A stretch of 64,000 bases of DNA from Gaiellaceae bacterium (GTDB lineage: Bacteria > Actinomycetota > Thermoleophilia > Gaiellales > Gaiellaceae), in contig BPGK01000001.1 of assembly GCA_026002995.1 (NCBI GenBank), forward strand, positions 806,001 to 870,000. The letters are read 5' to 3'. A program made the position numbers and the translations under genes. Under the pieces are notes generated by a model that worked only from the letters and a program-made list of their open reading frames with translations, did no database searches and was not told the origin of the DNA. How positions within the stretch are numbered: position 1 is the first letter of the stretch; each line of letters starts with the position of its first letter. Below, in pieces: positions 30,066 to 45,472 of this stretch.

Positions 30066-31217
30066 TTGGATCTGTACGAGTTCCAGGGGAAGGAGCTGTT
30101 CCGCTCCTTCGGCATCCCGGTGTCGGAGGGACGGCTCGCCACGAGCCCGCTCGAGGCGCGTGAGGCGGCCACGGCGCTGGGTTGTCCGGTGGTCGTGAAG
30201 GCGCAGGTGCTCGTGGGGGGGCGCGGGAAGGCGGGCGGGATCAAGCTCGCCGCGACGCCGGCCGAGGCCGAGGAGCGCGCGCGCGAGATCCTGGGGATGG
30301 ACATTCGCGGGCACACGGTGCACCGGGTGTGGGTCGAGCGGGCCTCGGAGATCGCCCGCGAGTACTACCTCTCGATCACCTTCGATCGCAGCGCGAAGAA
30401 GCCGCTCTTCATGTTCACGACCGAGGGCGGCGTCGACATCGAAGAGGTGGCCGCGACCAAGCCGGACGCCCTCGTCCGGCTGCACGTCGACCCGCTCGAG
30501 GGCTACCGGCCCTGGCAGGGCCGGCACCTCGTCTACGGAGCCGGCGTCTCGGACGCCGCCGAGCGGAGGCAGATCGAGGAGATCGTCGGGCGGCTCTACG
30601 AGACGTTCGAGCGTTGCGAGGCGATGCTCTGCGAGATCAACCCGCTCGTCGTGACGACGGACGGCGACGTGCGCGCGCTCGACGCGAAGGTCACGGTCGA
30701 CGACAACGCGCTCTTCCGCCAGCCGGAGATCGCCGAGATGCGCGATCTCGCGGCCGCCGACCCCCTCGAAGCGCTTGCGCGCGAGAAGGGCGTCACGTAC
30801 GTGAAGCTCGACGGTGAGGTGGGCGTCCTCGGGAACGGGGCCGGGCTGACGATGGCGACGGTCGACGTCGTGACCTTCGTCGGTGGTCGGCCGGCGAACT
30901 TCTGCGACCTCGGCGGCGGTGGCGACGCACAGGGTGTCGTGGACGCGCTCGAGGTGATCACGAGCGACCCGCAGGTGCGGGCCATCTTCTTCAACATCTT
31001 CGGCGGGATCACGCGCTGCGACGAGGTGGCGCGCGGGATCCTGCAGGCGCTCGAGCAACTCGAGCTCGAGCTGCCGATCGTCGTTCGGCTCGACGGCACG
31101 AATGCGGCGGAGGGCCGCAGGATCCTGGAGGAGGCGGCGCGACCGAACGTCTACGCGGAGGCGACCATGCTCGACGGCGCACGCCGGGCCGTCGAGCTCG
31201 CGGGAGCGGCGTCGTAG
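30066..31217 (+). CDS. sucC: Succinyl-CoA synthetase beta subunit
   Basis: 383 residues from TTG 30066; TAGACT (30050-30055) ends 10 bases upstream, giving a leader of only 3-4 nt. ATP-grasp N-domain: LYEFQGKELFRSFGIPV and VVKAQVLVGGRGKAGGIKLA. C-domain: GNGAGLTMATVDVV and FNIFGGITRCDEVARGI. It binds the nucleotide and forms succinyl phosphate/CoA with SucD, in the TCA cycle. sucD overlaps its stop by one base. Confidence 0.96.
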   Translation: MDLYEFQGKELFRSFGIPVSEGRLATSPLEAREAATALGCPVVVKAQVLVGGRGKAGGIKLAATPAEAEERAREILGMDIRGHTVHRVWVERASEIAREYYLSITFDRSAKKPLFMFTTEGGVDIEEVAATKPDALVRLHVDPLEGYRPWQGRHLVYGAGVSDAAERRQIEEIVGRLYETFERCEAMLCEINPLVVTTDGDVRALDAKVTVDDNALFRQPEIAEMRDLAAADPLEALAREKGVTYVKLDGEVGVLGNGAGLTMATVDVVTFVGGRPANFCDLGGGGDAQGVVDALEVITSDPQVRAIFFNIFGGITRCDEVARGILQALEQLELELPIVVRLDGTNAAEGRRILEEAARPNVYAEATMLDGARRAVELAGAAS

Positions 31218-40532: not shown

Positions 40533-41444
40533 CTACCCGGTGGGCTCCGCCTCCGGCGTCCGCCGGCGGGCGTGCGGGTGCGCCTGGAAGTAGGCCTCGC
40601 GCCGACGGCGATCGGACACGTGGGTGTAGCGCTCCGTCGTTCCGAGGTCGGCGTGGCCGAGCATCTCCTGCACGGAGCGCAGGTCGGCGCCACCCTCGAG
40701 CAGGTGGGTCGCGAAGGAGTGGCGGAGGAGATGGGGGTGGACGCGCTCCGGCTCGAGACCCGCCTTCGCGGCGAGCTTGCGCAGGACGAGGAAGGCGCCC
40801 GCGCGGGTGAGCGGCCCTCCACGTGCGTTCAAGAAGAGCTCAGGCCGGTAGCGACGATCGAGGTGGGGGCGTCCCATCGCGAGGTAGCGACGGACGGCCT
40901 CGGCCGCCGGGCGCCCGAGCGGAACGATGCGCTCCTTGCCGCCCTTGCCGACGACCCGAACGATCCGCTCGTCGAGGTCGACGGCGCCCTTCTCGAGACC
41001 GATCGCCTCGGAGACGCGGAGGCCCGCCCCGTACAGGAGCTCGACGAGCGCGCGGTCGCGTCGAGCGCGCGGCGTCGTCCCGTCCGCCGCCGCGATCAAG
41101 CGCTCGATCTCGGCCGGCGAGAGCGCGCGTGGAAGCCGGCGCGCGCGCCGAGGTAACTGGATCGAGGCTGCAGGGTTCTCGGTTCTCCGGCCGATAAGGA
41201 GCTCGTGGCGGAAGTACGCGCGGACTGCGGACACCCTGCGGGCGATCGTCGAGGCGGCGAGCCCGTCGGCGCGCATCGACGCGATCCAGCGCTCGATGTC
41301 GCTCGTGTCGGCGTCTGTCGGCGCCCCGTCGCGGAAGGCGGCGAACGCCGCGAGGTCGCGCCGGTAGGCGTCCACCGTGCGCGGCGAGCAACGCGCGGCG
41401 AGCGCGAGGAGGAAGCGCTGGACGTCGGGATCAGGGGCGTTCAC
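40533..41444 (-). CDS. Tyrosine recombinase, XerD-like
   Basis: 303 residues from GTG 41444. N-terminal SAM-like domain (~8-95), then the catalytic domain: Arg in LYGAGLRVSEAIGL, Lys in GKGGKERIVPLG, HLLRHSFATHLLEGG, LGHADLGTTERYTHV with the nucleophile Tyr. This set is complete. It should act on dif sites at the chromosome terminus with a partner Xer; a second recombinase lies 1.3 kb away. Confidence 0.9.
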   Translation of the reverse strand: MNAPDPDVQRFLLALAARCSPRTVDAYRRDLAAFAAFRDGAPTDADTSDIERWIASMRADGLAASTIARRVSAVRAYFRHELLIGRRTENPAASIQLPRRARRLPRALSPAEIERLIAAADGTTPRARRDRALVELLYGAGLRVSEAIGLEKGAVDLDERIVRVVGKGGKERIVPLGRPAAEAVRRYLAMGRPHLDRRYRPELFLNARGGPLTRAGAFLVLRKLAAKAGLEPERVHPHLLRHSFATHLLEGGADLRSVQEMLGHADLGTTERYTHVSDRRRREAYFQAHPHARRRTPEAEPTG

Positions 41445-41491
41445 GGCGTCCCGAGGGATTCGGCGGTCGTCCCGCGGCTCCTCTCGCCGGG

Positions 41492-41497
41492 TACCGT
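41492..41497 (+). promoter_or_regulatory. Leaderless-type -10 box TACCGT before a CTG start
   Basis: TACCGT is followed by 7 bases and then CTG 41505, the first codon of a signal peptide. This spacing matches the other leaderless promoters in the window. Confidence 0.5.
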
Positions 41498-41504
41498 TGG
41501 CTCC

Positions 41505-42446
41505 CTGCGCCCGCGCGCCGTCGTCACTCTGCTTGCCCTGGCCGCGCTCGCCGCAGCGGCGGCACCGGCCCCCGCGGAGGCCTCGCAGCTCATCGCGCGG
41601 AACACCTCGACGGAGCGGCTCGCGGTCTCGCGCGACGGCAAGGCGCTCGTCACCTACCACAGTCGCGGCCAGCTCCGCCGAGTGCTCGCCTGGGGCGCGG
41701 TGAACGCCCTTCCGCCGAGCCCGTCGCGACCCCAGGTCGCGTTCACGCTCGACTACTCGGGAGGGTGGGGGAGCGTCGGGAAGCCGGTCTGGAAGACGTT
41801 CCGCAACGTCTGCGGTCCCTACCGCGGCCCGCAGCTCCCGTACCTCGTCGCCGCCTGCACCGCGCCGGACGGCTCGCACTGGGCGCTCCAGCGCTGGCGC
41901 CGAAGTCAGGCCAACTACGGGCTCCCGCCCTGGAAGAAGGGACACGGGGACCTCGAGCTCCGCCTCTCGCACTGGACCGGGCCGGTCGCCGTTCTCGAGG
42001 CGTGGACGGACTGGTACTACAACGGCCGCTGGCACCACCTCTTCGGGAGGCTCACCTATCGCGGACGGCCCGTGCACGGCTTCGCCACGACCCCGAACGG
42101 AGAGCCGCTCGACTCCTACGGCCGCGTGCTCTATCTCGACGTCCTCGACTCCGCGCTCGGGCCCGGCTGGCGGCGTGAGAACGGCTTCGTCGCGAGACGG
42201 CCGACGGGAGCGTTCTGCTACGGCTTCGTCCCCCACACGGCGCCCACCGGCGAGCGCCGCCCGGCGGCGAACGGGCGGCGCTACCGGCTCTCGGTGAGCG
42301 GGCCCGGCGTGACCCCCGACGTGGTCTGGGAGGGCGAGGGCGTGCCGGACTTCGACCCCGAGGATCCCGCGCACCGCGAGCACGAGGAGCGGATGACCGC
42401 GCTCCAGCGCGAGCTCTTCGGCGGCCACCCCGGCTGCCGGCCGTAG
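41505..42446 (+). CDS. Secreted protein of unknown function (probable CTG start)
   Basis: 313 residues if translation starts at CTG 41505. The reading frame is open far upstream, but no ATG/GTG/TTG lies near; the next GTG codons are beyond the signal peptide. From CTG the chain begins MRPRAVVTLLALAALAAAAA, a textbook signal peptide, and a TACCGT box lies 7 bases before. The mature part is rich in Trp/Tyr (WTDWYYNGRWHHLFG, GRPVHGFATTPNGEP) and is probably a compact exported domain. No known family. It is divergent from the Xer gene. Confidence 0.7.
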   Translation: MRPRAVVTLLALAALAAAAAPAPAEASQLIARNTSTERLAVSRDGKALVTYHSRGQLRRVLAWGAVNALPPSPSRPQVAFTLDYSGGWGSVGKPVWKTFRNVCGPYRGPQLPYLVAACTAPDGSHWALQRWRRSQANYGLPPWKKGHGDLELRLSHWTGPVAVLEAWTDWYYNGRWHHLFGRLTYRGRPVHGFATTPNGEPLDSYGRVLYLDVLDSALGPGWRRENGFVARRPTGAFCYGFVPHTAPTGERRPAANGRRYRLSVSGPGVTPDVVWEGEGVPDFDPEDPAHREHEERMTALQRELFGGHPGCRP

Positions 42447-42756: not shown

Positions 42757-43614
42757 TCAGCTCCGCGGGTGCGCGCGGTCGTAGACGCGGCGGAGTCGGC
42801 GCGCGTCGACGTGGCTGTAGACCTGGGTCGTCGAGAGCGAGGAGTGCCCGAGCAGCTCCTGGATCGTCCGGAGATCGGCTCCGCCCTCGAGCAGGTGCGT
42901 CGCGAAGGCGTGTCGGAGGCGGTGCGGGTGGCGTACGAGCCGCCGCACCGTGCTCGTCTCGAGCCGTCGACCGCGGGCCGAGAGGAAGAGAGCGCTCTCG
43001 GCTCCCCGCGCGAGCGCCGGGCGACCGGAACGGAGGTAGCGGGCGAGGTGGAGCGCGGCCTCCTCGCCGAGCGGCACGACGCGCTCTTTCCCTCCCTTCC
43101 CGCGCACGTGCACGGACTCCCGCTCGAAGTCGACGTCCCCGAGATCGAGCCCTACGGCCTCGGCGCTCCGGAGACCGCAGGAGTAGAGGAGCTCGAGCAG
43201 CGCGCGGTTGCGGAGCGCGAGCGGCGACGCGCCGCCAACGCGCTCGAGCAGCGCCTCGACCTCGGCGACCTTCGGGGCGTCCGGGAGTCGTCGGCCTCGC
43301 CGGGGAGTCGGAACCCCGTCGGGAACGCGGGCCGGGCCGCGCGTGAACCGCAGGAAGCTCCGCACGGCGGCGAGCCTGCGCGCGATCGAGACGGGAGCGA
43401 GTCGCCGTCGGCCGCTTCCGAGCTCGGCGACCCAGTCGGCGAGCACGTGCGCATCGACGTCGTCGAGCGCGAGCTCCCGCGCCTGGAGCCAGCGCAGGAA
43501 CGCTCGGAGGTCGGTGCGGTAGGCGCGCGCCGTCGCCTCCGCCAGCCCGCCGTGCTCCAGGAAGCGCTCGACTGCGGTCTCCGCGTCCACGGCCCCGGGT
43601 TCGCCGCGAGGCAC
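42757..43614 (-). CDS. Tyrosine recombinase, XerC-like
   Basis: 285 residues from GTG 43614; GTG 43590 is an alternative start. N-terminal domain ~10-100; catalytic domain has Arg in LYSCGLRSAEAVGLDL, Lys in GKGGKERVVPLG, HRLRHAFATHLLEGG, LGHSSLSTTQVYSHV with the nucleophile Tyr. All residues are present. With the recombinase at 40533 it may form the XerC/XerD pair. It is divergent from the ABC exporter, 31 bases apart. Confidence 0.88.
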   Translation of the reverse strand: MPRGEPGAVDAETAVERFLEHGGLAEATARAYRTDLRAFLRWLQARELALDDVDAHVLADWVAELGSGRRRLAPVSIARRLAAVRSFLRFTRGPARVPDGVPTPRRGRRLPDAPKVAEVEALLERVGGASPLALRNRALLELLYSCGLRSAEAVGLDLGDVDFERESVHVRGKGGKERVVPLGEEAALHLARYLRSGRPALARGAESALFLSARGRRLETSTVRRLVRHPHRLRHAFATHLLEGGADLRTIQELLGHSSLSTTQVYSHVDARRLRRVYDRAHPRS

Positions 43615-43645
43615 GAGGAGCCTCCCCGCAGGCAGTCTTCGGGTC

Positions 43646-45472
43646 GTGCCCGGTAGACGCTGGGAGACGTTCGTTGCCGAGGAGCCGCCCGAGCGGCCGG
43701 CCGATCCCGCGGTCCGCAAGGCGAACGCGCGCCGCATCGTCGCGCTCTTCCGGCCCTATCGCCGCCGACTCGCGGCGGTCTTCGCGATCATCGTGCTATC
43801 GGCCGGCATCGGCATCGTCTCGCCGTTCCTGCTCCGCGAAGTCCTCGACGTCGCGATCCCCGAGCAGCGGGTCGGACTGCTCACTGCGCTCGTCGCCGGG
43901 ATGGTCGCGATCCCGATCGTGACCGGCGTCCTCGGCGTCTGGCAGACGCTGCTCTCGAACCAGGTCGGTCAGCGCGTTATGCACGACCTGCGCACGCAGG
44001 TCTACCGTCACCTGCAGCGGCTCTCGCTCGCCTTCTTCACCCGGACGCGCACGGGCGAGGTGCAGAGCCGCATCGCGAACGACATCGGCGGCATCGAGAA
44101 CGTCGTCACCTCGACCGCGACCTCGGTGCTCTCGAACGTGACCACCGTCCTCGCGACCGTGGTCGCGATGGTGCTGCTCGACTGGCGGCTCGCCGTCTTC
44201 GCGCTCGCGTTGCTGCCGCTCTTCGTCTGGCTGACGAAGCGCGTCGGCGCGGAGCGCAAGAAGGTGACCGCCGAGCGCCAGGCATCCCTCGCCGACGTTT
44301 CCTCGATCGTCCAGGAGTCGCTCTCCGTGTCCGGGATCCTGCTCGGGAAGACGATGGGGCGGACCGACGACCTCGCCGAGCGCTTCTCCGCGGAGTCGGC
44401 GCGTCTCGCCGAACTCGAGGTGCGCAGCCGCATGACCGGGCGCTGGATGATGGCTGCGATCCAGACCTCGTTCGCGGTCATGCCGGCCCTCGTCTACTGG
44501 TTCGCGGGCATCGCGATCGCGCACGGATCGGACACGATCACGATCGGGACGCTCGTCGCGTTCACGACGCTCCAGGCGCGGCTCTTCTTCCCCATCGGCA
44601 GCCTGCTCAACGTCCAGCTCGACGTACAGTCCTCGCTTGCGCTCTTCGATCGAATCTTCGAGTACCTCGATCAGGAGGTCGACATCGTCGAGGGCACGCG
44701 CACGCTCGAGGTGCCGCGGGGCGAGGTCCGGCTCGAGCACGTCTGGTTCCGCTACGACGACGCGGCGTGGACGCTTAGGGACGTCTCTTTCACCGTGCCC
44801 CCCGGCACGAAGACGGCGCTCGTCGGCGAGACCGGCTCCGGGAAGACGACGTGCGCGTACCTCGTCGCTCGCCTCTACGACGCGACCCGGGGCACCGTGT
44901 CGATCGACGGCGTCGACGTGCGCGAGCTCACGTTCGCGTCGCTCGCCGCCACCGTTGGAGTCGTCTCGCAGGAGACCTACCTCTTCCATGCGACGGTGCG
45001 CGAGAACCTCCGCTTCGCAAAGCCGGACGCGACCGACGAGGAGATCGAGGAGGCGGCTCGGGCGGCGCAGATCCACGAGTTGATCGCGACGCTGCCGGAC
45101 GGCTACGAGACGGTGGTCGGCGAGCGCGGCTACCGCTTCTCCGGAGGCGAGAAGCAGCGGATCGCTATCGCGCGGACGATCCTGCGCAACCCGCCGGTGC
45201 TCGTCCTCGACGAAGCCACCTCCTCACTCGACCCGCAAACGGAGCGGCTCGTCCAGGAGGCGCTCGAGCGGCTGGCGGAAGGGCGTACGACGATCGCGAT
45301 CGCGCACCGGCTCTCGACCGTGCGCGACGCCGACCAGATCGTCGTCCTCGAGCGCGGACGGGTCGTGGAAGTCGGGCCCTTCGACGAGCTCCTCGCCCTC
45401 GGCGGGCGGTTCGCCGCGCTCGCGGCGCGGGACGGCATCGGCGTCGTGCCCGCCGCAGGAGGCGTACGATAG
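43646..45472 (+). CDS. ABC exporter, fused membrane and ATPase domains
   Basis: 608 residues from GTG 43646. Six hydrophobic helices in ~45-330, with an ABC_membrane core ([23 protein letters not shown]), then an ATPase: Walker [18 protein letters not shown] loop [21 protein letters not shown], signature [16 protein letters not shown], Walker [14 protein letters not shown] loop [10 protein letters not shown]. It would work as a dimer exporting lipid, peptide or drug. Its stop codon overlaps the -10 box of the pckA leader. Confidence 0.92.

Follow-up and report, generated by a model that had tools for sequence, protein, structure and literature searches.

A Candidate CTG Start on a Leaderless or Near-Leaderless Transcript of a Secreted-Protein Gene in a Gaiellaceae Bacterium

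Organization of the Locus

In the window, that is, the whole stretch of 64,000 nucleotides analysed here, the segment 40533-43737 holds a gene for a predicted secreted protein lying between two Xer recombinase genes (Table 1). Since xerC and xerD adjoin each other in other genomes, the secreted-protein gene was probably inserted between them in reverse orientation. The best profile matches of the divergent recombinase were NF001399, above its cut-off, and TIGR02225 (XerD) and TIGR02224 (XerC), both below their cut-offs. This xerD is the neighbour common to all five orthologues of the secreted-protein gene.

The conserved intergenic block was considered as a promoter of the secreted-protein gene and was rejected: G006 and G003, where the secreted-protein gene is missing at that place, have a similar block before xerD, and the block was therefore assigned to xerD. 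Read on the minus strand it is AGAGGAGC-N12-GCCGAA, and several species of the genus (L088-L095) have it ahead of xerD, with or without the secreted-protein gene.

Table 1: Features of the locus (positions in the window).
Feature	Position	Strand	Basis or remark
xerD-like tyrosine recombinase, divergent	40533..41444	-	Profile matches and conserved neighbour
GTG, nearest in-frame canonical codon upstream	41205..41207	+	Antisense inside xerD; rejected as start
Conserved block TTCGGC-N12-GCTCCTCT	41459..41484	.	Intergenic; assigned to xerD
TACCGT, -10-type (TANNNT) element	41492..41497	+	Aligned with TATTCT (G008) and TAGGGT (G004)
7-nt spacer tggctcc	41498..41504	+	N7, inside the N6-N8 peak seen before ATG/GTG in the genome
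CTG, putative translation start	41505..41507	+	Aligned with TTG in G008 and ATG in G004; no canonical in-frame alternative
Predicted Sec signal peptide LRPRAVVTLLALAALAAAAAPAPAEA, 26 codons	41505..41582	+	Translation, by inspection
Mature secreted protein and stop	41583..42446	+	No Pfam/NCBIfam family; four invariant cysteines
Second Xer recombinase, xerC-like	42757..43737	-	Flanks the secreted-protein gene on the other side

The CTG at 41505 opens 313 codons that end in TAG (42444-42446). The earlier note had placed TACCGT 7 bases before this CTG and had read a signal peptide from it; its coordinates proved exact, and the N-terminus, LRPRAVVTLLALAALAAAAAPAPAEA followed by SQ, looks like a Sec signal peptide on inspection of the translation. 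Strong conservation of the protein begins immediately afterwards, at SQLIARNT. The statement that ATG, GTG and TTG are missing nearby in frame also held: none occurs between GTG 41205 and GTG 41682, and the TTG at 41497 is out of frame. As had been said of the later GTG codons, the first of them, GTG 41682, falls behind the signal peptide, 59 codons into the protein. Upstream of the CTG the frame is open as far as 41157.

TACCGT was the sole TANNNT in the roughly 250 nt that precede the mature-protein anchor. A sigma-70 consensus scan found nothing, and the sequence preceding the CTG, ctcctctcgccgggtaccgttggctcc, holds no Shine-Dalgarno motif. Transcription would be predicted to start at the last spacer base or at the C of the CTG; a purine is missing at this place, where the spacer ends in c-t-c-c and is followed by C. 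An unusual initiator tRNA as the cause of CTG use was rejected, considering that the initiator tRNA looks ordinary, with the canonical GGGCTCATAACCC present.

The Secreted Protein

No family match was obtained for the protein in Pfam or NCBIfam, and no solved structural relative was found. The AlphaFold model was weak and mainly beta (mean pLDDT 59), with a helix at residues 3-19 in this low-confidence model, and Foldseek gave no usable match with it. Homologues are widespread in the family, often with two or three per genome; they form a group within Thermoleophilia that has no database family. The alignment of 46 of them (alignment A3) contained four invariant cysteines, one near the C-terminus, which suggests a disulphide-bonded exported protein. 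Export is all that we would propose for it.

Comparison with Orthologues

Relatives linked to xerD were found in G004, G005, G007, and G008, with 66-70% protein identity. The earlier note had proposed that translation starts at the CTG and that an alignment of orthologues could check it, and the comparison supports the proposal. In the aligned DNA, the CTG of the window, the TTG of G008, and the ATG of G004 share one column, and TACCGT, TATTCT, and TAGGGT, respectively, occupy one set of columns before them. The start contexts are TATTCT-N7-TTG in G008 and TAGGGT-N9-ATG in G004, and the sequence around them has diverged. The distance from GATTCGGC to the start is equal in the window and G008; outside the xerD block, the conspicuously conserved letters of these two are mainly TA...T and TG.

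Conserved protein sequence upstream of the CTG, named beforehand as the observation that would count against this start, was not seen in the orthologues. In G004 an in-frame stop lies 5 codons upstream of the ATG; the upstream sequence is therefore non-coding there and the protein begins at the NTG. By this comparison, the start of the protein would be the NTG column that the CTG of the window occupies. Among 51 homologous loci, ATG, GTG, or TTG in the expected start interval was missing only from the window gene and from G007. In most homologues from the rest of the family, ATG or GTG stands some 60-90 nt ahead of the mature anchor; the CTG of the window is at -78.

These data also bear on the use of some other start, be it GTG 41205, with a long N-terminal extension, GTG 41682, or an upstream non-NTG codon on a leadered mRNA. 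The frame is open far upstream of the CTG, 4 of the 5 species maintain it from the xerD block to the gene, and G005 and G007 would need an upstream start or a weak codon. Against this, upstream the frame runs antisense to xerD and meets the stop of G004, two reasons for which GTG 41205 was rejected, and a start at GTG 41682 would cut off the signal peptide and conserved residues. We consider this alternative improbable.

The remaining two orthologues, those of G005 and G007 (L005/L034; L002/L031), have lost the stretch with the -10 element. In G007 the frame is intact and no NTG start is visible nearby, and in G005 the sole nearby candidate is an ATG that gives a short signal peptide. Either these genes are expressed from other signals or erosion is under way in them.

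Erosion could be proposed for the window gene as well: an ancestral TTG or ATG would have mutated to CTG, the gene now being translated poorly or not at all. Only one transition separates TTG from CTG, true switches of a start to CUG are very rare (1 of 2,468 ancestral UUG starts, PMC5622118), and 2 of the 5 xerD-linked orthologues have lost the -10 element, G007 also any NTG start while its frame is still open. An open frame is, moreover, weak evidence of recent function in high-GC DNA. On the other hand, the -10 element of the window and its spacing are intact, and all pairs carry a signature of purifying selection: identity with the window was 0.76-0.78 at codon position 1 and 0.76-0.83 at position 2 versus 0.53-0.64 at position 3, a pattern that points to long-term selection and that cannot date a recent loss. 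Taking into account the loss of the -10 element in G005 and G007 and the pyrimidines at the expected transcription start of the window gene, erosion is to be kept as the main rival, and a serious one, although we hold it to be unlikely.

Frequency of the Motif in the Genome

TANNNT was counted in 864 kb of the genome of the window (71% GC, 758 predicted genes in this sample), where it is scarce, with 0.00058 occurrences per base per strand. Its presence at N6-N9 before codons near coding onsets was then compared in frame and out of frame. It preceded 74 of 654 ATG codons in frame versus 5 of 387 out of frame, and 92 of 1293 GTG codons versus 9 of 1166. From this enrichment it follows that leaderless expression is common in this genome. 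CTG was not enriched behind TANNNT-N6-9 (3/1002 in frame versus 5/1212 out of frame), and leaderless CTG is therefore a rare exception here and no general habit.

The motif before a single CTG is thus not significant genome-wide by itself. What lifts it above chance is that two diverged orthologues have it at the corresponding aligned position, one before TTG and the other before ATG.

Elsewhere in the window, TAGACT-N10-TTG at 30066 is a likely near-leaderless TTG start, of a gene that we take to encode the succinyl-CoA ligase beta subunit (LDLYEFQGKELF...).

A Second CTG Start in recQ

When further genomes of the family were surveyed in the same way, the DNA-repair gene recQ of G004 emerged, with TATACT-N7-CTG. 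The gene starts with TATACT-CGC(C/G)CGC-CTG-AC in seven species of the genus (G001, G002, G003, G004, G006, G007, and G008), and at the recQ starts of L194, L196-L199, L201, and L185 and at L163:12765 the CTG stands behind an almost invariant CCTATACTCGCCCGC. In four of the seven (G003, G004, G006, and G008), no in-frame ATG, GTG, or TTG was found from -150 to +60. A 20-nt block, CCTATACTCGCCCGCCTGAC, is invariant in the five species aligned, and the DNA before it varies. The product belongs to the RecQ family (TIGR00614, above its cut-off). Within the same comparison, the start reads TATACT-N8-TTG in G010 and is an unrelated GTG in G005, and in other genera (G011, G084, G085, G086, G088, G089, G090, G091, and G092) the same place carries TACACT followed by ATG or GTG at N6-N7, so that the recQ CTG coincides with the start position of the sister genera. 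Should transcription start at its usual distance, recQ would have a leader of 0-2 nt. The comparison gives strong evidence that, within the genus, a CTG in such a promoter context functions as a start.

This recQ is absent from the genome of the window. Both genes share TANNNT-N7-CTG and lack a canonical alternative, recQ in several species; unlike the window gene, recQ keeps its CTG, together with a nearly invariant block, in seven species, and it is the clearer and stronger case. Because recQ of the same genus has a conserved CTG of the leaderless type, the same mechanism gains credibility in the window gene, and the persistence of CTG in such a context across the genus speaks against erosion.

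It also bears on a base-call error or a within-population variant, in which the real or common base would give ATG, GTG, or TTG at 41505. That base is read from one assembled genome. However, the assembly is a single contig and 97% complete, and recQ has its CTG in seven separate assemblies, so the CTG of the window needs no error; we regard such an error or variant as very improbable. An indel error acting on the out-of-frame TTG 41497 was rejected, this codon overlapping the last base of the -10 element and G008 aligning without an indel.

The survey for CTG starts covered stretches of several genomes, about 2 Mb in all. In it, recQ and the window gene were the only conspicuous CTG genes for which no better start was at hand, and such genes are therefore few per genome. 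The other matches (L125, VanZ-like, L136, L072, L129, L171, L178, and L179) were discarded, having a better canonical start or not fitting the coding onset.

Discussion

Considering the evidence together, we assign a probability of roughly 60% to a leaderless or near-leaderless CTG start of a secreted protein in the window gene. According to this model, the gene is transcribed divergently between xerC and xerD; RNA polymerase would recognise TACCGT as the -10 element and begin 7-8 bases downstream, which would put the 5' end of the mRNA at the CUG or within about two bases of it. The initiator tRNA would then start at the CUG, inserting fMet, presumably on a 70S ribosome as on other leaderless messages, and the protein would be exported by Sec. 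The CTG would thus occupy the place where orthologues carry ATG or TTG. For the genus as a whole, with recQ in at least seven species and the window gene, CUG is rather probably a natural and evolutionarily kept start on leaderless or near-leaderless mRNAs.

There is no agreed account of start-codon choice on leaderless messages, and in the actinobacterial system studied best only AUG and GUG serve. A codon said to fail in that system, kept at a leaderless position with AUG, GUG, or UUG in sister species, offers a natural experiment open to direct testing with reporters. There is also a practical side: gene callers that ignore CTG misplace such starts and lose signal peptides.

For Deinococcus deserti, a leaderless-rich bacterium, Baudet and collaborators reportedly claimed in 2010, on the basis of proteomics, that non-canonical starts are used; the likeness would lie in non-canonical starts in a leaderless-rich bacterium.

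Leaderless genes with TANNNT about 10 bp before the start have been described in Actinobacteria and Deinococcus-Thermus (Zheng et al. 2011, PMC3160421; PMC12340547), and the abundance of this architecture in the genome of the window agrees with the actinobacterial literature (PMC3160421). The window gene has the same element before its putative start, and no Shine-Dalgarno motif; it differs in its codon, CTG, the leaderless starts sampled here being nearly all ATG or GTG. In E. coli, leaderless mRNA is translated inefficiently from non-AUG codons (PMC9031893), UUG is confined to leadered transcripts in C. diphtheriae (PMC5784534), and CTG was not enriched in Ribo-RET of M. tuberculosis (PMC9094748). 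In mycobacteria, CTG and TTG at the leaderless position were ineffective in reporters and only ATG and GTG worked (Shell et al. 2015, PMC4633059). The window gene shares the actinobacterial leaderless architecture of that system and departs from its ATG/GTG rule, with CTG in the window and TTG and ATG in the orthologues; if true, the use of CUG in the genus would contradict the rule. A conserved CTG of the leaderless type is unusual yet within the ability of ribosomes. Leaderless initiation itself is known, and what would be new here is its occurrence at a codon reported to be inactive in mycobacteria.
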